In this document: piece after piece, positions 26,792-33,786 of the stretch
Layout of the letters: each line of letters begins with the position of its first letter
Numbering within the stretch: position 1 is the first letter of the stretch
From: Armatimonadota bacterium
Lineage (GTDB): Bacteria; Sysuimicrobiota; Sysuimicrobiia; Sysuimicrobiales; Kaftiobacteriaceae
Assembly: GCA_031081675.1 (NCBI GenBank)
Contig: JAVHLZ010000011.1
Location: forward strand, 1-64,000
Direction of reading: 5' to 3'
DNA: 64,000 nt
The notes under the pieces: generated by a model
Database searches by the model: none
What the model saw: the letters and a program-made list of their open reading frames with translations, nothing else
What the model was told of the DNA's origin: nothing
Position numbers and translations under genes: made by a program

Positions 26792-27448
26792 GTGGCGTGG
26801 TTCGTAGCCATCAGCGGCAACATCGGCGCGGGAAAGTCCACCCTGACCGCCGCCCTCAGCCGCCGCCTGGGGTGGCGCGCCTGCTACGAGGTGGTGGACG
26901 ACAACCCCTACCTGCCGGACTTCTACGCCGACATGCGCCGCTGGAGCTTCGCCCTGCAGGTGTTCTTCCTCAGCCGGCGCTTCCAGCACCACCAGGAGAT
27001 CGCCCGATCCCCCGTGCCGGTGATTCAGGACCGGACCATCTACGAGGATGCGGAGATCTTTGCCCGCAACCTCTACCTCCAGGGCCTGATGGACGAGCGG
27101 GACTTCCGCACCTACTCCGATCTGTTCGCCACCATGGTGGGCCTCCTGCGCCCTCCGGATCTCGTCATCCACCTGCAGGCCTCGGTGCCGACACTGCTGG
27201 AGCGCATCCGGCAGCGGGGCCGCGCCTACGAGCAGCGGATCCCGCCGTCCTACCTGGCCCAGCTCAACGAACGCTACCGGGAGTGGGTGGACCGCTTCAC
27301 CCTGTGCCCCCTCCTCACCGTGGACGCCGACCGCCTGGACCTCGACAGGCTGGACCCTGTGGTGGAGGCTATCCAGAACCGCCTGGGGACCGGAGCGGCC
27401 GGGGGAGGCGCCGGGCCCGGCAGCCGGAGGGAGGCATGGCCGACCTGA
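26792..27448 (+). CDS. Deoxynucleoside kinase (second of pair)
   Basis: 218 residues from GTG 26792, with CGGAGGGAGG about 10 bases upstream. P-loop FVAISGNIGAGKSTLT, then VVDDNPYLPDFYADM, ALQVFFLSRRFQHH, VIQDRTIYEDAEIFARNL (the Asp-Arg catalytic pair) and LLERIRQRGRAYEQ. It resembles the Bacillus Dck (deoxyadenosine/deoxycytidine kinase) type more than the preceding gene does. Heterodimer formation is known for such pairs in Lactobacillus; here it is an inference. The 3' end overlaps birA by 13 bp. Confidence 0.87.
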   Translation: MAWFVAISGNIGAGKSTLTAALSRRLGWRACYEVVDDNPYLPDFYADMRRWSFALQVFFLSRRFQHHQEIARSPVPVIQDRTIYEDAEIFARNLYLQGLMDERDFRTYSDLFATMVGLLRPPDLVIHLQASVPTLLERIRQRGRAYEQRIPPSYLAQLNERYREWVDRFTLCPLLTVDADRLDLDRLDPVVEAIQNRLGTGAAGGGAGPGSRREAWPT

Positions 27449-28254
27449 CCGAGGCCGCGGTGGCGGCGCGGCTGCGGACGCGCCGATTCGGCCGCCCGGT
27501 GGTGGTTCTGGATCGGGTGGGGTCCACCAACGACCGGGCCCGCGAGATGGCCGACGCCGGCGCGCCGGAGGGGACCGCGGTCATCGCCCGGGTGCAGACC
27601 GCGGGCCGCGGCCGGCGCGGCCGTCGGTGGCTCTCTCCGCCCGGAGGCCTGTGGATGTCCGTGGTGCTGCGCCCGGGCCTGCCGGTGGCGCAGTGGCCCC
27701 TGGTGGGGTTCGCGGTGGCCCTGGCGACGGCCGACGCCGCCGCCGCCACTGCCGGCGTGCGCGCAGCCCTGAAATGGCCCAACGACGTGGTGGTGGGTGA
27801 CAGCAAGCTGGCCGGGGTGCTGGTGGAGGCGGCCGGCTCCGCGGCCGTCGCGGGCGTCGGGGTGAACGCCAACCTCGACGTGGACGCGTTGCCCGCCGAG
27901 GTGCGCCAGGATGCCACGTCCCTGCGGTCTCTTACGGGGAGCGATGTGGACCTGGCGTTGCTGGCGGCCGATGTGTTGTCCCGGTGCGAGGAATACTACG
28001 ACCTGCTGCACCAGGATCCCGCTGCGGTGGTGGCCGCCTGGCGCCGCCGCAGCGCCACCCTGGGCCGGCGCGTGCGGACGGGCGGCGCCCGGGAGGTGGA
28101 GGGGGTGGCGGAGGACGTGGACGACACGGGCGCCCTGGTGATCCGCACGGCGGCCGGCCGCGTGCGGGTGGTCGCCGGAGAGGTGTCGCTGCGTCCCGCG
28201 CCCGCGGCCAGAGAGGAGCGGCCATGGCTCAGATCACCGACGTACCGGGAGTGA
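27436..28254 (+). CDS. birA: Biotin--[acetyl-CoA-carboxylase] ligase, without repressor domain
   Basis: 272 residues from ATG 27436, with GGAGGGAGG upstream. It attaches biotin to carboxylase carrier proteins through biotinyl-AMP. Motifs: VLDRVGSTNDRAREMA, AGRGRRGRRWLSPPGGLWMS (biotinyl-AMP loop GRGRxGR), LKWPNDVVVGDSKLAGVL and GVGVNAN. The C-terminal SH3-like cap is present (LGRRVRTGGAREVEGVAE). The N-terminal helix-turn-helix of bifunctional BirA is absent, so it is an enzyme only. It overlaps the next gene by 31 bp. Confidence 0.94.
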   Translation: MADLTEAAVAARLRTRRFGRPVVVLDRVGSTNDRAREMADAGAPEGTAVIARVQTAGRGRRGRRWLSPPGGLWMSVVLRPGLPVAQWPLVGFAVALATADAAAATAGVRAALKWPNDVVVGDSKLAGVLVEAAGSAAVAGVGVNANLDVDALPAEVRQDATSLRSLTGSDVDLALLAADVLSRCEEYYDLLHQDPAAVVAAWRRRSATLGRRVRTGGAREVEGVAEDVDDTGALVIRTAAGRVRVVAGEVSLRPAPAAREERPWLRSPTYRE

Positions 28255-29174
28255 GCGTCGGTCACGCCACCGACCTGCAGGCGGCCACTGGGTGCACGGT
28301 GGTCCTGTGCGAGCGCGGCGCGGTGGGCGGCGTGGACGTGCGGGGGTCCGCGCCCGGGACCCGGGAGACGGATCTGCTGCGCCCCATGACGCTGGTGGAG
28401 CGGATCCACGCGGTCCTGCTGACCGGGGGCAGCGCCTTCGGCCTGGCCGCCGCCGACGGGGTGATGCGCTTCCTGGAGGAACGGGGGGTGGGCTACGACG
28501 CGCGGGTGGCCAAGGTGCCCATCGTCCCCGCGGCGGTGATCTTTGATCTGGCCGTGGGCAGCCCGCTGGTGCGGCCGGATGCGGCCATGGGATACGCTGC
28601 GGCCCTCGCGGCGTCGGCCGGGCCGGTGGAGGAGGGGAGCGTCGGCGCCGGGACCGGGGCGACCGTGGGCAAGCTGGGCGGGTCGGCGACGGCCATGAAG
28701 GCCGGCGTGGGCACGTGGTCGCTGCGCCTGCCCGGGGACGTGGTGGTGGGCGCCCTGGCGGTGGTCAACGCCTTCGGGGACGTTCTGGACGACCGGACGG
28801 GACAGATCCTGGCTGGCGCCCGGGATCCCGCCAGCGGTCGCTTCCTGGACACGGCCCGGGCGCTGGTGGGCGGCGTGCGGCCGGCGGGGCTGGCCACCAA
28901 CACCACGCTGGCGGTGGTGGCCACCAACGCCCGGCTGACCAAGGAGCAGGCCAACAAGCTGGCCCAGCTGGGCCACGACGGGCTCGCCCGGGTCATCTCG
29001 CCCGTCCATACCCTGTATGACGGGGACACCGTTTTCGCCCTGTCCACCGGCGCCGCCGACGCGGACCCTCTGGCGCTGGGCGCCGCCGCCGCGGCCGCGG
29101 TGGCGGAGGCCGTCAAGCGCGCGGTGCGTCTGGCCCGGGGGCTGGCGGGGATTCCCGGGCTGGCCGACCCCTGA
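28224..29174 (+). CDS. P1-family peptidase (DmpA/NylC-like, self-processing)
   Basis: 316 residues from ATG 28224. The pattern ITDVPGVSVGHATD at the start, TVVLCERGAVGGVDVRG, LLTGGSAFGLAAADGV and GAGTGATVGK matches the P1/S58 family of N-terminal nucleophile aminopeptidases. Processing is expected between Asn226 and Thr227 in GLATNTTLAVVATNA, making Thr227 the nucleophile, as in nylon-oligomer hydrolase NylC; DmpA uses Ser. Substrates may be beta-peptides or amides. It is embedded in a cofactor cluster between birA and an S component. The start lies inside birA in another frame. Confidence 0.85.
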   Translation: MAQITDVPGVSVGHATDLQAATGCTVVLCERGAVGGVDVRGSAPGTRETDLLRPMTLVERIHAVLLTGGSAFGLAAADGVMRFLEERGVGYDARVAKVPIVPAAVIFDLAVGSPLVRPDAAMGYAAALAASAGPVEEGSVGAGTGATVGKLGGSATAMKAGVGTWSLRLPGDVVVGALAVVNAFGDVLDDRTGQILAGARDPASGRFLDTARALVGGVRPAGLATNTTLAVVATNARLTKEQANKLAQLGHDGLARVISPVHTLYDGDTVFALSTGAADADPLALGAAAAAAVAEAVKRAVRLARGLAGIPGLADP

Positions 29175-29195
29175 CCGCCGCCGGGCCGGATGTGG

Positions 29196-29299
29196 TACAG
29201 TATGCAGAGAGCCGGCACCGTCCCGGGGCCGGACTCCCGAACAGAGCCACTCGATCAGGCTCCGTCCGGTACTCGAAGAGACTGGAACGGAGGGATACC
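29196..29299 (+). promoter_or_regulatory. Structured leader of the ECF S component, possible riboswitch or attenuator
   Basis: A -10-like TACAGT sits at 29196-29201 (weak -35). The following leader folds by eye into GAGCC/GGCTC (29244-29248 with 29258-29262) and a long bulged hairpin at 29262-29290: arms CCGTCCGGTACTC and GAGACTGGAACGG with a GAA loop (12 pairs, two bulged A). The last bases of the hairpin join the GGAGGG ribosome binding site at 29289-29294, 5 bases before ATG 29300, so folding could hide it. It does not match a riboswitch class that I recognise. Confidence 0.4.
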
Positions 29300-30082
29300 A
29301 TGGCACAGCCCGGATACGCCCCTTCCGTTCTCCGGAAGGGGTTTCGTCTGTCCGCCCGGGACATCTCGGTGACCGGAGCCCTGGGGGCGGTGGCCGCCGT
29401 CCTGGGCTACGTGCCCGGGTTGGGCTTCATTCCCGCGCCCACCCCCGCGGGCGCGGCCACCACCATGCACATCCCGGCCATCATCGCCGGGGTGCTGGAG
29501 GGCCCGGTGGCCGGCGCGCTGGTGGGTGGCATCTTCGGGTTCTGGAGCTTCTACCGCTCCACCACCCCGATCTTCAAGAACCCCGTGATCGCCTTCGGCC
29601 CGCGGATCCTCATCGGCGTGGTCGCCGCCCTGGTCTTCGCAGCCCTCCAGCGCCGGTACGCCCGGGCCCTGGCGGCGGCCGTTCTGGGCGCCGGCATGTT
29701 CACCATCCTCGGGCCCGGCGCCTCCCGCTTCGAAGAGGCGTATGCCGCCGGGGCGATCGCTCCCAGCTGGCTGATCGCCGCCTACCACGCGGTGGCGGCG
29801 GCCACCGTCGTCCGGCCGTGGGTGGCGGCGGCCGCTGGCGTCGCCGCCGCAGCCATGGCCTACGCCGCCCTGAGGGGAGCCAACGCGGCGCCGGCCGCCG
29901 CGGCGGTGGCGGGCACCCTGACCAACACGGTGGGCGTGCTGAGCCTCATGGTGGCGTTCGGCTACATCCCCGCGGGGGCGGCGTTCGTCATCGGCGCGAC
30001 CCACGGGCTGCCGGAGGTGGTCCTGGCCGTGGTGGTCACGGTGCCGGTGTGCCGGGCGGTGGAGGCGGCGCGGGGGCGGTAG
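29300..30082 (+). CDS. ECF transporter S component, candidate pantothenate uptake
   Basis: 260 residues from ATG 29300 with GGAGGG 5 bases upstream. About seven to eight hydrophobic segments with small-residue loops; PTPAGAATTMHIPAIIAGVLE and GPVAGALVGGIFGFWSF resemble the substrate-binding loop region of S subunits of energy-coupling factor importers. It lies just before coaX (pantothenate kinase) and after birA, so pantothenate or another cofactor precursor is the guess. Energising subunits are not in the window. An alternative is a plain membrane protein. Confidence 0.6.
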   Translation: MAQPGYAPSVLRKGFRLSARDISVTGALGAVAAVLGYVPGLGFIPAPTPAGAATTMHIPAIIAGVLEGPVAGALVGGIFGFWSFYRSTTPIFKNPVIAFGPRILIGVVAALVFAALQRRYARALAAAVLGAGMFTILGPGASRFEEAYAAGAIAPSWLIAAYHAVAAATVVRPWVAAAAGVAAAAMAYAALRGANAAPAAAAVAGTLTNTVGVLSLMVAFGYIPAGAAFVIGATHGLPEVVLAVVVTVPVCRAVEAARGR

Positions 30083-30094
30083 GAGTCCGCTCCG

Positions 30095-30901
30095 GTGAGG
30101 GAGATGCTGCTGGCCCTGAACATCAACAACACCCAGATCAAGGTCGGTGTCTACCGGGACGCGGCGCTGCTGGTCCACTGGCGCCTGGCCACGGTCCTGG
30201 ACAGGACCGACGACGAGTACGCCATGCTCCTGCGGGCGCTGTTCCAGCACGCCGGGATGGAGTTCGCCGGAGTGGAGGCGGCCGCCATCTCCTCGGTGGT
30301 GCCGCCGCTCACCGACGTCTTCGACCGCCTGTGCCGTCGGTACTTCCGGGTCACGCCTCTGGTGGTGGGCCCCGGGGTGCGCACCGGGATCCGGATCCTG
30401 TACGAGAACCCCAAGGAGGTGGGGGCGGACCGGATCTGCAATGCGGTGGCCGTGTACGCCCGGTACGGGGGGCCCGCCATCGTGGTGGACTTCGGCACCG
30501 CCACCACCTTCACCGCGGTGTCCGCCGACGGGGACTTCCTGGGCGGCGCCATCGCGCCCGGCATCGGCATCTCGGTGGACGCCCTGGCCGAGCACACGGC
30601 CCAGCTCCCCCGCATCGAGCTCAGCAAGCCCCGCACCGTGATCGGCCGCTCCACCGTCACCGCCATGCAGGCCGGCATCGTCTACGGTTTCGTGGGACAG
30701 GTGGAGGAGATCATCCGCCGGATGCGGGCGGAACTGGGCGCGCCCGCGGTGGTGGTGGCCACCGGCGGGTGGGCGGAGCTGATCGCCGACGAGTGCCGGT
30801 CCATCGACCACCTGGACCCGCTGCTGACCCTGGAGGGCCTGCGGCTCATCCACGAACGCAACCGCCCGGCGGCCCGGGGCGTGGAGGCGGTAGAGCGGTG
30901 A
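30095..30901 (+). CDS. coaX: Type III pantothenate kinase with altered phosphate-binding motif
   Basis: 268 residues from GTG 30095 (AGGAG upstream); ATG 30104 gives the family-like start MLLAL. CoaX phosphorylates pantothenate, the first step of CoA synthesis. Present: ISSVVPPLTDVF, GVRTGIRILYENPKEVGADR (in place of the usual NP..G.DR), VVDFGTATTFTAV, GGAIAPGIGISVDAL, and a final TGGWAELIA. Odd: the usual DIGNTN of the first motif reads NINNTQ, so Asp6 is Asn and Gly8 is Asn (30119 onward). Either activity tolerates this or the protein is altered. The stop overlaps a possible GTG start of the next gene. Confidence 0.88.
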   Translation: MREMLLALNINNTQIKVGVYRDAALLVHWRLATVLDRTDDEYAMLLRALFQHAGMEFAGVEAAAISSVVPPLTDVFDRLCRRYFRVTPLVVGPGVRTGIRILYENPKEVGADRICNAVAVYARYGGPAIVVDFGTATTFTAVSADGDFLGGAIAPGIGISVDALAEHTAQLPRIELSKPRTVIGRSTVTAMQAGIVYGFVGQVEEIIRRMRAELGAPAVVVATGGWAELIADECRSIDHLDPLLTLEGLRLIHERNRPAARGVEAVER

Positions 30902-30984
30902 CACGCGTGGAACGCGGAGACGGGGGTGGCGGCGCCGCAGTGGGGCAGGAATCCCCCACCGCGGCGCGTAGTAGAGCCGAGGGC

Positions 30985-31950
30985 ATGAAGGTCAAGCGGG
31001 TCGTGTCGGTCAGCCTCGGGAGCAGCAGCCGCGACCACCGCGTGGAACTGGAGATCCTGGGCCAGCGGGTGATCGTGGAGCGCATCGGCACCGACGGCGA
31101 TGTGCGCCGGGCCCGGCGCCTGCTGGAGGAGCTGGACGGGCAGGTGGACGCCCTGGGCCTGGGCGGCACGGACCTCTACCTGACCGCCGGGTCCCGCCGC
31201 TACCGGATCCGGGAGACCGCCGCCCTGGTCCGCAACGTCCGGCGTACCCCGTTCGTGGACGGCGGGGGGCTGAAGGCCTCCTGGGAGCGGTGGCTGATCA
31301 CCGAGTACCTGCCCACCCGGCGGGGGCTGTCCTTCCGGGGGCGGCGGGTGCTGCTGGTTTCCTCGGTGGACCGCTACGGGATGGCGGAAGCCTTCGCCCT
31401 GGCTGGCGCCCAGACGATTTTCGGCGACTTCCTGTTCGCCCTGGGGTTGCCGATCCCCCTGCGCTCGCTGACCTCGGTGAAAATCCTGGCCGCCCTGATC
31501 CTCCCGTGGCTGTCCCAGGCGCCCATCGCCTGGCTGTACCCCACCGGCAAGAAGCAGGAGCGGATCACGCCCCGGTGGGAGCGGTACTACCGGTGGGCTG
31601 ACGTGGTGGCCGGCGACTTCCACCTCATCCGCCGGTACATGCCGCCGGACCTGCGGGGCAAACTCATCCTCACCCAGACCATTACCCGCGCCGACCTGGA
31701 GGAGCTGCGCAGCCGGGGGGTGTGGCTGCTGGTCACCGACGGGCCGGACATGGGCGGGCGGGCGTTCGCCACCAACGTCCTGCAGGGGGTGATCGTGGCC
31801 CTGCTGGAGCGGCCGCCGGAGGCGATCTCCCCCGAGGAATACCTCCAGACCGCGCTGCGGGCCGGATTCGAGCCCGGGTACTACGAGCTCAACCCCGACC
31901 TGGCCCCGCCGTGGGCGCCGGCCCGGCCGGCCGCCGCGGCGACGCCATGA
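30985..31950 (+). CDS. Conserved protein of unknown function, partner of the acyl-ACP-reductase-like gene
   Basis: 321 residues from ATG 30985. An in-frame GTG at 30898, overlapping the coaX stop, would add a low-complexity 29-residue leader. The N-terminal part is beta-rich (VVSVSLGSSSRDHRVELEIL, then VERIGTDGD), followed by GGTDLYLTAGSRRYRIRET, a segment VLLVSSVDRYGMAEAFALAG that looks Rossmann-like, a hydrophobic stretch around SVKILAALILPWLSQAP, and LLVTDGPDMGGRAFATNVLQG. I recall similar proteins next to this same neighbour in Firmicutes, sometimes labelled quinate dehydrogenase, but no dehydrogenase motif convinces me. Function unknown. Confidence 0.6.
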   Translation: MKVKRVVSVSLGSSSRDHRVELEILGQRVIVERIGTDGDVRRARRLLEELDGQVDALGLGGTDLYLTAGSRRYRIRETAALVRNVRRTPFVDGGGLKASWERWLITEYLPTRRGLSFRGRRVLLVSSVDRYGMAEAFALAGAQTIFGDFLFALGLPIPLRSLTSVKILAALILPWLSQAPIAWLYPTGKKQERITPRWERYYRWADVVAGDFHLIRRYMPPDLRGKLILTQTITRADLEELRSRGVWLLVTDGPDMGGRAFATNVLQGVIVALLERPPEAISPEEYLQTALRAGFEPGYYELNPDLAPPWAPARPAAAATP

Positions 31951-31978: not shown

Positions 31979-33151
31979 GTGACGCGCGAGCCCGCGACCC
32001 CAGACCTCGACCCGCAGTCCCCCGCCGCGTCGCGGGCGCCGGAGTCCGGAGGATCCCCCGACGGCGGCATCGGCCGGTTCGCGTTCATCATCCACCCCCT
32101 GCGGGTGGAGGACTTTGCCCGCCGCTACCCGGTGACCCGCCGGCTGCCGGCCCGCCTGGTCGAGCGGGTGTTCCGGTGGGTCCCGCCTCGCCTGGTGTCC
32201 CGCATCACGGGCATCCGCTCGCCTACCGGGGCGCGAGCCGAGGGCTGGTTCATCGGCCTCCCCCTGACTCCCCGCACGCTGCTGGAGTCCCCGCTGGAGT
32301 TCGCCTATCGCCGCATCATCCAGGCCGGGCGCCTGGCCGAGGCCCTGGGGGCCCGCATCGTCGGGCTGGGCGCCTTCACCAAGATCGTCGGTGACCGCGG
32401 CGTGACCGTGGCGCGCCACCTCCGCATCCCGGTGACCACGGGCAACAGCTACACGGCGGCCACGGCCGTGGAAGGCGCCCTCCTGGCGGCCCGGCGGATG
32501 GGCATTGACCCCTCCGGGGCCACGGTGGCCGTGGTGGGCGCCACGGGGTCCATCGGCACCGCGTGCAGTCACCTGCTGTCCCGGGAGGCGGGACGGCTGG
32601 TGCTGGTGGCCCGCACCCGGGAGGCCCTCGAGGCGCTGGCGGACCGACTGCGGGGCGGCCGGGCCCGGATCGAGGTGGGGACCGATGTGCGGCAGGCCGT
32701 CCGCGCGGCCGACGTGGTCCTGGCCGTCTCGTCGGCCACCGACGTCCTGATCGAGCCCGAGGACCTGCGGCCCGGTGCGGTGGTGTGCGACGTGGCCCGG
32801 CCCCGCAATGTCTCGCGCCTGGTGTACGAGCGCCGGGACGATGTGCTGGTCATCGACGGCGGCGTCATCCAGGTGCCCGGGGATGTGGACTTTGGGTTTG
32901 ACTTCGGGTTTCCGCCGCGGATGTGCGAGGCGTGCATGGCCGAGACCATCCTGCTGGCCCTGGAGCGCCGCTTCGAGCCGTTCACCCTGGGGCGCGAGGT
33001 GGACCTGGCCCGGGTGGAGGAGATCGCCGCGCTGGCCCGCCGCCACGGGTTTGCCCTGGCGGGCCTGCGGCGGTTCGAGCGGGCGATCCACGACGGCGAA
33101 ATCGAGCGGATCCGCCAGGCCGCCCGCCGCGCCGGCGTCGCCCGCGCTTGA
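31979..33151 (+). CDS. Acyl-ACP-reductase-like protein (cyanobacterial AAR homologue)
   Basis: 390 residues from GTG 31979. Residues about 75-330 match long-chain acyl-ACP reductase of cyanobacteria: SRITGIRSPTGARAEGWFIG, GARIVGLGAFTKIV, VTTGNSYTAATAVEG, MGIDPSGATVAVVGATGSIG (NADPH-binding GxxGxxG, 186-192), LVLVARTREALEAL, and EACMAETILL, whose Cys319 aligns with the acyl-thioester cysteine Cys294 of Synechococcus AAR. AAR reduces acyl-ACP or acyl-CoA to a fatty aldehyde. The N-terminal 30 residues are low-complexity. No aldehyde-deformylating oxygenase is nearby, so the aldehyde would go elsewhere. A shikimate-dehydrogenase-like role is an alternative. It lies 28 bp after the conserved unknown gene. 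Confidence 0.75.
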   Translation: MTREPATPDLDPQSPAASRAPESGGSPDGGIGRFAFIIHPLRVEDFARRYPVTRRLPARLVERVFRWVPPRLVSRITGIRSPTGARAEGWFIGLPLTPRTLLESPLEFAYRRIIQAGRLAEALGARIVGLGAFTKIVGDRGVTVARHLRIPVTTGNSYTAATAVEGALLAARRMGIDPSGATVAVVGATGSIGTACSHLLSREAGRLVLVARTREALEALADRLRGGRARIEVGTDVRQAVRAADVVLAVSSATDVLIEPEDLRPGAVVCDVARPRNVSRLVYERRDDVLVIDGGVIQVPGDVDFGFDFGFPPRMCEACMAETILLALERRFEPFTLGREVDLARVEEIAALARRHGFALAGLRRFERAIHDGEIERIRQAARRAGVARA

Positions 33152-33177
33152 CGGACGCCGGGGCCATGGGATATACT
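33148..33177 (+). promoter_or_regulatory. Promoter of greA
   Basis: TTGACG at 33148-33153, 18-bp spacer, TATACT at 33172-33177. The -35 box overlaps the stop of the preceding gene. Expected start of transcription is near 33184, immediately before the leader hairpins. Confidence 0.6.
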
Positions 33178-33185
33178 GCGTCCCG

Positions 33186-33210
33186 CTGAGGGCGCAGGCC
33201 CTCAGTTTTT
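33186..33210 (+). terminator. Leader terminator-like hairpin 1 before greA
   Basis: Perfect 8-bp stem CTGAGGGC/GCCCTCAG with a GCAG loop, followed by TTTTT at 33206-33210. It lies directly after the expected transcription start, so it would release a very short RNA or act as an attenuator. Confidence 0.65.
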
Positions 33211-33244: not shown

Positions 33245-33277
33245 CGCTGTAGGCCGGTCGGCCTACGGTGTTTTCTC
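33245..33277 (+). terminator. Leader terminator-like hairpin 2 before greA
   Basis: Stem of 11 pairs (CGCTGTAGGCC with GGCCTACGGTG, two G-U pairs), GGTC loop, followed by TTTTCTC at 33271-33277. With hairpin 1 it makes a double stop in the greA leader, 27 bp before the coding start. Confidence 0.6.
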
Positions 33278-33303
33278 TTCATCCCGTCCCAGGAGTGTGG
33301 GCG

Positions 33304-33786
33304 ATGGCAGAGGCGGAAAAGGAGACCATTCTGACGCCCGAAGGCCTCCGGCGGCTTGAGGAGGAGCTGGAGCACCTCAAGACCGTCCGCCGGAAGGAGG
33401 TGGCCGAGCGCATCAAGCAGTCCAAGGCGTTCGGCGACCTGATGGAAAACTCCGAATACGAGGACGCCAAAAACGAGCAGGCGTTCGTGGAGGGGCGGAT
33501 CCTGCAGCTGGAGCAGCTGCTGCGCAACGCGCGGGTGGTGGATAACCACGGGGTGCCGCCCGACCAGGTCACCGTCGGGTCCACGGTCCAGGTAAAGGAT
33601 CTCGGCAGCGGAGAGGAAATCACGTACATGATCGTCGGCACCGCCGAGGCCGACCCGGCCCGGGCCCGGATCAGCAATGAGTCGCCCGTGGGGCGGGCGC
33701 TCCTCGGCCGGCGCGCCGGGGAGACGGTGGAGGTGACGGTACCGGCGGGGCGGATCCGGTATCGGATCCTGAAGGTGACCCATTGA
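33304..33786 (+). CDS. greA: Transcription elongation factor GreA
   Basis: 160 residues from ATG 33304 with AGGAG 9 bases upstream. GreA enters the RNA polymerase secondary channel and stimulates cleavage of backtracked RNA. The N-terminal coiled coil shows [20 protein letters not shown] and the acidic tip [19 protein letters not shown]; the C-terminal FKBP-like domain shows [29 protein letters not shown] and VEVTVPAG. It appears monocistronic: its own promoter, a double-hairpin leader and its own terminator. Confidence 0.97.

Follow-up and report, generated by a model that had tools for sequence, protein, structure and literature searches.

To our knowledge, few enzymes of the AAR/PigE kind have been characterized: the long-chain acyl-ACP reductase AAR in cyanobacteria, and PigE and TamH in pigment clusters (prodigiosin and tambjamine, respectively). 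In AAR, Cys294 carries the acyl group as a thioester, and NADPH is bound by the loop 162-GATGDIG-168, with its phosphate held by R189, R193 and R314 and with Y247 supporting binding (PMC7089970). A thioester-cysteine mechanism has likewise been argued for PigE (Cys296; PMC8341465) and for TamH (Cys887; PMC9594044), and glutamyl-tRNA reductase (HemA) is also a cysteine-thioester reductase that yields an aldehyde (PMC8341465). Here we analysed a 64,000-nucleotide stretch of DNA (the window) from an Armatimonadota bacterium (contig JAVHLZ010000011.1), in which a first-pass annotation had proposed an acyl-ACP-reductase-like protein that keeps the catalytic cysteine.

A predicted AAR/PigE-type reductase

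The candidate reductase is encoded by an open frame at 31979-33151 on the plus strand, which contains every segment quoted by the first-pass annotation in the order given there. The genes of this part of the window run in the order birA, S58 peptidase, ECF component, coaX, partner, reductase and greA, then clpC and radA, and the features are as follows:

26797-28254: birA, neighbouring gene
27984-29174: S58 peptidase, neighbouring gene
29192-30082: ECF component (transporter), neighbouring gene
30095-30901, plus strand: type III pantothenate kinase (coaX), 83 bases upstream of the partner gene
30985-31950, plus strand: partner protein gene, 321 aa, with a predicted two-domain Rossmann-like fold
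31979-33151, plus strand: putative AAR/PigE-type NAD(P)H-dependent acyl-thioester reductase, 390 aa, GTG start
33148-33177, plus strand: sigma-70-like promoter match TTGACG-18-TATACT, probably serving the downstream greA
33185-33206, plus strand: terminator-like hairpin followed by a T run, directly 3' of the reductase
33268-33786, plus strand: transcription elongation factor GreA, downstream neighbour of the reductase

A ribosome-binding-like GGAG motif lies 9 nt 5' of the GTG, and the frame is intact across many genomes, in homologues of 35-79% identity. Given the terminator-like hairpin at 33185-33206 and the promoter-like match of greA, the partner and reductase genes probably end one transcript; the reductase is thus probably the last gene of an operon that we infer from these signals.

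In agreement with the AAR-like sequence that had been claimed, the best match among curated models was the reductase half of PigE in NCBIfam (E value of 2.5e-69, residues 74-383), and TIGR04058, the model of long-chain acyl-ACP reductase AAR, matched residues 67-359 (4.4e-40). Solved structures of both enzymes were also recovered by sequence (4ppm, PigE, 8.3e-39; 6jzq, AAR, 3e-30), so that the resemblance to AAR and PigE greatly exceeds what chance would give, and the similarity to this superfamily spans the N-terminal, Rossmann and C-terminal parts of the protein. The closest characterized relative is the PigE reductase domain, ahead of cyanobacterial AAR. Cysteines occur at residues 196, 270, 316 and 319, and the last of these, the cysteine of EACMAE, aligns in the PDB alignments with the PigE cysteine and, as the first-pass annotation had stated, with AAR Cys294. 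It is present in 49 of the 49 family members that cover the position, and the GxxGxxG pattern of the dinucleotide loop (here GATGSIG, residues 187-193) is invariant. Across 49 to 51 aligned reductases, the invariant or nearly invariant residues comprise Cys319, G187, G190, G193, H39, P40 and G129-G131, together with T153, G155, N156, D271, P275 and G357. The scores fall far under the equivalog cut-offs (138 bits versus 449.7 for TIGR04058; 234.5 bits, for the reductase half only, versus 850 for the PigE model NF053554), and we therefore place the window reductase in a separate subfamily. Structural support for the AAR fold comes from a model of a fused homologue (L046, 690 aa; pLDDT 88.5, pTM 0.63) and not of the window protein itself: the reductase half of this model matched the AAR structures 6jzy, 6jzu and 6jzq with a TM of 0.75-0.77 by target length and E values down to 2e-19. 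Taken together, the sequence comparisons make a strong case for assigning the window frame as an acyl-thioester reductase, with support from the homologue model, and the mechanism of the family suggests, by analogy, that its product is very probably an aldehyde.

Residue by residue, the window reductase resembles AAR in having the Cys294 equivalent and a GATGxIG loop, and it retains two of the three arginines that hold the NADPH phosphate (R189 and R314, here R212 and R339), whereas R193 is replaced by alanine and Y247 by R274, and its N terminus is longer. With PigE and TamH it shares the same cysteine, the position of the dinucleotide loop and an HGF segment; unlike them, it is not fused to a class III aminotransferase and has a different partner. 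AAR acts in an alkane pathway with aldehyde-deformylating oxygenase (ADO), which was found in none of the 43 genomes searched here.

The nearest relatives of the reductase come from metagenome-assembled genomes of Terrabacteria group bacterium ANGP1 (placed by the NCBI taxonomy in Ca. Segetimicrobium of the phylum Ca. Sysuimicrobiota) and of Armatimonadetes, and relatives in Bacillota also exist. The genome had been described as Firmicutes-like, but it groups with Ca. Sysuimicrobiota. A tree of the reductases comprised Sysuimicrobiota with Thermaerobacter-like sequences, a Desulfotomaculum-like group, and partner-fused, aminotransferase-fused and PlsY-fused groups, and the window reductase clustered with sequences from ANGP1 and from its own family (99/98). 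AAR and PigE lie very far from the rest of this tree (end branches of about 3.7); because these branches are so long, we do not trust the exact placement, and because the enzymes are so distant, the substrate range of the window reductase may differ from theirs.

The reductase is tightly linked to a partner protein

The first-pass annotation had paired the reductase with an unknown gene, which corresponds to the partner at 30985-31950. In the list of open reading frames, this gene appears within a longer frame (29017-31950, 977 aa) but accounts for just the C-terminal third of it, the final 321 aa, which is the conserved part. The rest of that frame is an out-of-frame read-through across the ECF component and coaX in a G+C-rich genome, and, given the 977-aa frame, a gene caller could misplace the start of the partner in the window. 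Searches with the partner returned no match in Pfam, NCBIfam or PDB sequences and none that was convincing in plasmids. A confident model (pLDDT 90.2, pTM 0.87) predicts a two-domain Rossmann-type protein without the GxGxxG loop, and its comparison with PDB and viral fold libraries gave broad, weak Rossmann-type matches, the best TM among the matches listed being 0.48 by query length.

Counted without regard to shared ancestry, and therefore less independent than they appear, 44 of the 61 genomes around the window hold both genes, 16 hold neither and one (G031) holds the partner only, which lies there at a contig end. The partner is also held by 19 of 20 more distant genomes, all of them selected for holding the reductase (18 picked as having a reductase without an obvious partner nearby, and 2 as having the partner); the twentieth, G075, carries an aminotransferase-reductase fusion. 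Wider co-occurrence tests around G057 covered only 3 genomes at the level of class and 2 at the level of phylum. In Blastocatellia, Desulfosudis, Azohydromonas, Oligoflexus and Bacteriovorax, partner and reductase form a single protein of around 680-800 aa, and such fusions occur in Acidobacteriota, Bdellovibrionota and others, whereas in Bacillota the two genes are mostly unlinked. Five genomes (G012, G014, G020, G023 and G036) have the partner away from any window-type reductase, and in three of these (G012, G020 and G023) the other reductase has a length that would accommodate a PlsY fusion and clusters with the proteins of that type (L074, L126 and L072). The partner is a genuine protein with a tight link to the reductase across several phyla, and the reductase branch is large, uncharacterized and nearly always accompanied by this same, previously unnamed protein.

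Lipid-type fusions and neighbours in other genomes

Four loci encode a PlsY-like acyltransferase joined to a diverged AAR-type reductase:

L074, 3773-5581, minus strand: PlsY-like acyltransferase and diverged AAR-type reductase
L072, 6145-7911, plus strand: PlsY-like acyltransferase and diverged AAR-type reductase
L085, 7346-9082, minus strand: PlsY-like acyltransferase and diverged AAR-type reductase
L126, 7030-8772, minus strand: PlsY-like acyltransferase and diverged AAR-type reductase

The acyltransferase domain was checked against Pfam on L074 alone (PF02660, 3.5e-23), and the cysteine is kept in all four members read. In the PlsY fusions, which come from several Sysuimicrobiota genomes, TNGGA and GANGVVG replace TTGNS and GATGSIG. 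Neither the partner nor the PlsY-reductase fusion is described in the open-access literature that we searched, which is weak evidence of absence.

In nine Bacillota loci, genes for SCP2-type lipid-binding proteins (cluster n2; three checked against Pfam) adjoin a stand-alone partner; in the window's own phylum, SCP2 was found in 4 of 43 genomes. An amino-acid-permease-like transporter (cluster n5) also adjoins the partner and the SCP2 gene in Bacillota (L110, L111, L112, L113, L121 and L124). Other Bacillota loci encode fusions arranged as in TamH, with a class III aminotransferase domain preceding the reductase (L037 6651-9320, L041 and L051), and a helix-turn-helix protein of 179-189 aa, a possible regulator, is encoded just 5' of the reductase, partner or fusion (L051 5963-6502, L026, L030 and L041). 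In Bdellovibrionota, the gene for the fused partner-reductase is adjoined by genes for a DAGK-type lipid kinase, an NAD_binding_4 SDR and a DUF3419 protein. Some members of this cluster type (L042-L049; for example, L044 from 5132) add an alpha/beta hydrolase-AMP ligase fusion and a PPDK_N protein, and the whole is a possible unusual lipid cluster. No lipid-type neighbours of this kind were seen in the window's phylum, where housekeeping genes immediately flank the pair. The reductase most likely functions in lipid synthesis, a view drawn mainly from the other phyla.

Alternative roles for the partner and the reductase

Two readings compete over the partner, and they leave the reductase assignment unaffected. 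The partner could be a second enzyme that uses up the aldehyde, with channelling between the two, a role that we regard as possible but short of probable. The characterized relatives all pass their aldehyde on to a partner enzyme (ADO for AAR, the aminotransferase for PigE and TamH, and GSAM for glutamyl-tRNA reductase), and the partner described here is fused or adjacent where those enzymes sit. Stand-alone partners keep motifs such as VDRYGMAEA, YPTGxKQ and GDFHxIRRYMP, but these fade in the fused versions, the sequence matches no enzyme family, and the fold matches, all with a TM below 0.5, are of a broad Rossmann type. We consider just as tentatively that the partner may be a degenerate sister of the reductase, lacking the cysteine and the dinucleotide loop and now serving as a structural or regulatory subunit. 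When profiles were compared, residues 88-242 of the partner scored 31.5 over 133 columns against the Rossmann part of the reductase; none of 40 column-shuffled decoys exceeded 19.4, and none of 20 other families, an SDR among them, exceeded 23.8. The comparison of the two also gave an E value of 0.0014, and the score hints at common ancestry. Set against this, hhalign assigned the match a probability of only 14-18%, AAR was absent from the best 50 structural matches of the partner, and a test of secondary-structure order was not significant, with one shuffle outscoring the real pair.

For the reductase itself, a working shikimate/quinate dehydrogenase, which the first-pass annotation had raised as a competing placement, or a glutamyl-tRNA reductase is scarcely credible. 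Pfam Shikimate_DH (3.5e-12) and, distantly, TIGR01035 hemA (1e-10) do match, but only in the Rossmann part, whereas AAR and PigE align over most of the length with far better scores; no whole-length aroE match above cut-off was obtained. Elsewhere the genome has a true gene for each activity, aroE at 222.9 bits and hemA at 323 bits, both above cut-off, and either role was ruled out on that basis. The absence of an aldehyde oxygenase, remarked on in the first pass, extends genome-wide: ADO was found in 0 of 43 genomes by a search that recovered the Synechococcus elongatus control, which makes alkanes through an AAR-ADO route unlikely, and this route was dropped. It is also unlikely, although less so than a dehydrogenase role, that the substrate is a non-lipid thioester on a cofactor- or amino-acid-type carrier, such as a pimeloyl-, lipoyl- or pantothenate-derived group. 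The neighbouring birA, ECF transporter component and coaX could hint at such a substrate, but the birA/coaX/dusB/greA/lysS order is kept in Bacillota that have the partner or reductase elsewhere, G023 keeps the partner in that neighbourhood with the reductase missing there, and the fusions and neighbours in other genomes are of lipid type. Because the coaX/birA neighbourhood persists without the pair, we judged the adjacency uninformative and set aside a cofactor role based on it. Of the undescribed lipid or cofactor step that had been suggested, the lipid part is likely and the cofactor part is unlikely.

Proposed mechanism and implications

We think it probable that the window encodes an acyl-thioester reductase that uses Cys319 and NAD(P)H and works with its co-inherited partner, and that its aldehyde is destined for lipid more likely than for alkanes. 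Homology, catalytic residues, co-occurrence and fusions are read from the sequence, and from them we infer substrate, direction, partner role and lipid end product. A fatty acyl group would pass from acyl-ACP or acyl-CoA to Cys319 as an enzyme thioester, and NAD(P)H bound at GATGSIG would donate a hydride, releasing a fatty aldehyde. The partner from 30985-31950 would act together with the reductase, either as a subunit that is not itself a reductase and that docks the carrier or the lipid, or as the recipient of the aldehyde. The aldehyde, or an amine, alcohol or ether derivative of it, would then most likely enter lipid and not alkanes.

More speculatively, and with the odds somewhat against so broad a statement, this may be a widespread, undescribed two-component fatty acyl-thioester reductase through which Sysuimicrobiota, Bacillota, Acidobacteriota and Bdellovibrionota supply their membrane lipids with chains derived from aldehydes, a reading that includes one-polypeptide forms and, sometimes, a paralogue built on PlsY. 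Conservation of the reductase branch extends over one uncultured phylum and several more, its co-inherited partner fits no curated family searched, and natural fusions to a phospholipid acyltransferase exist. If active, the system would suggest that lipid synthesis in bacteria includes an unrecognized step that depends on an aldehyde, and it would be a source of new fatty-aldehyde enzymes.
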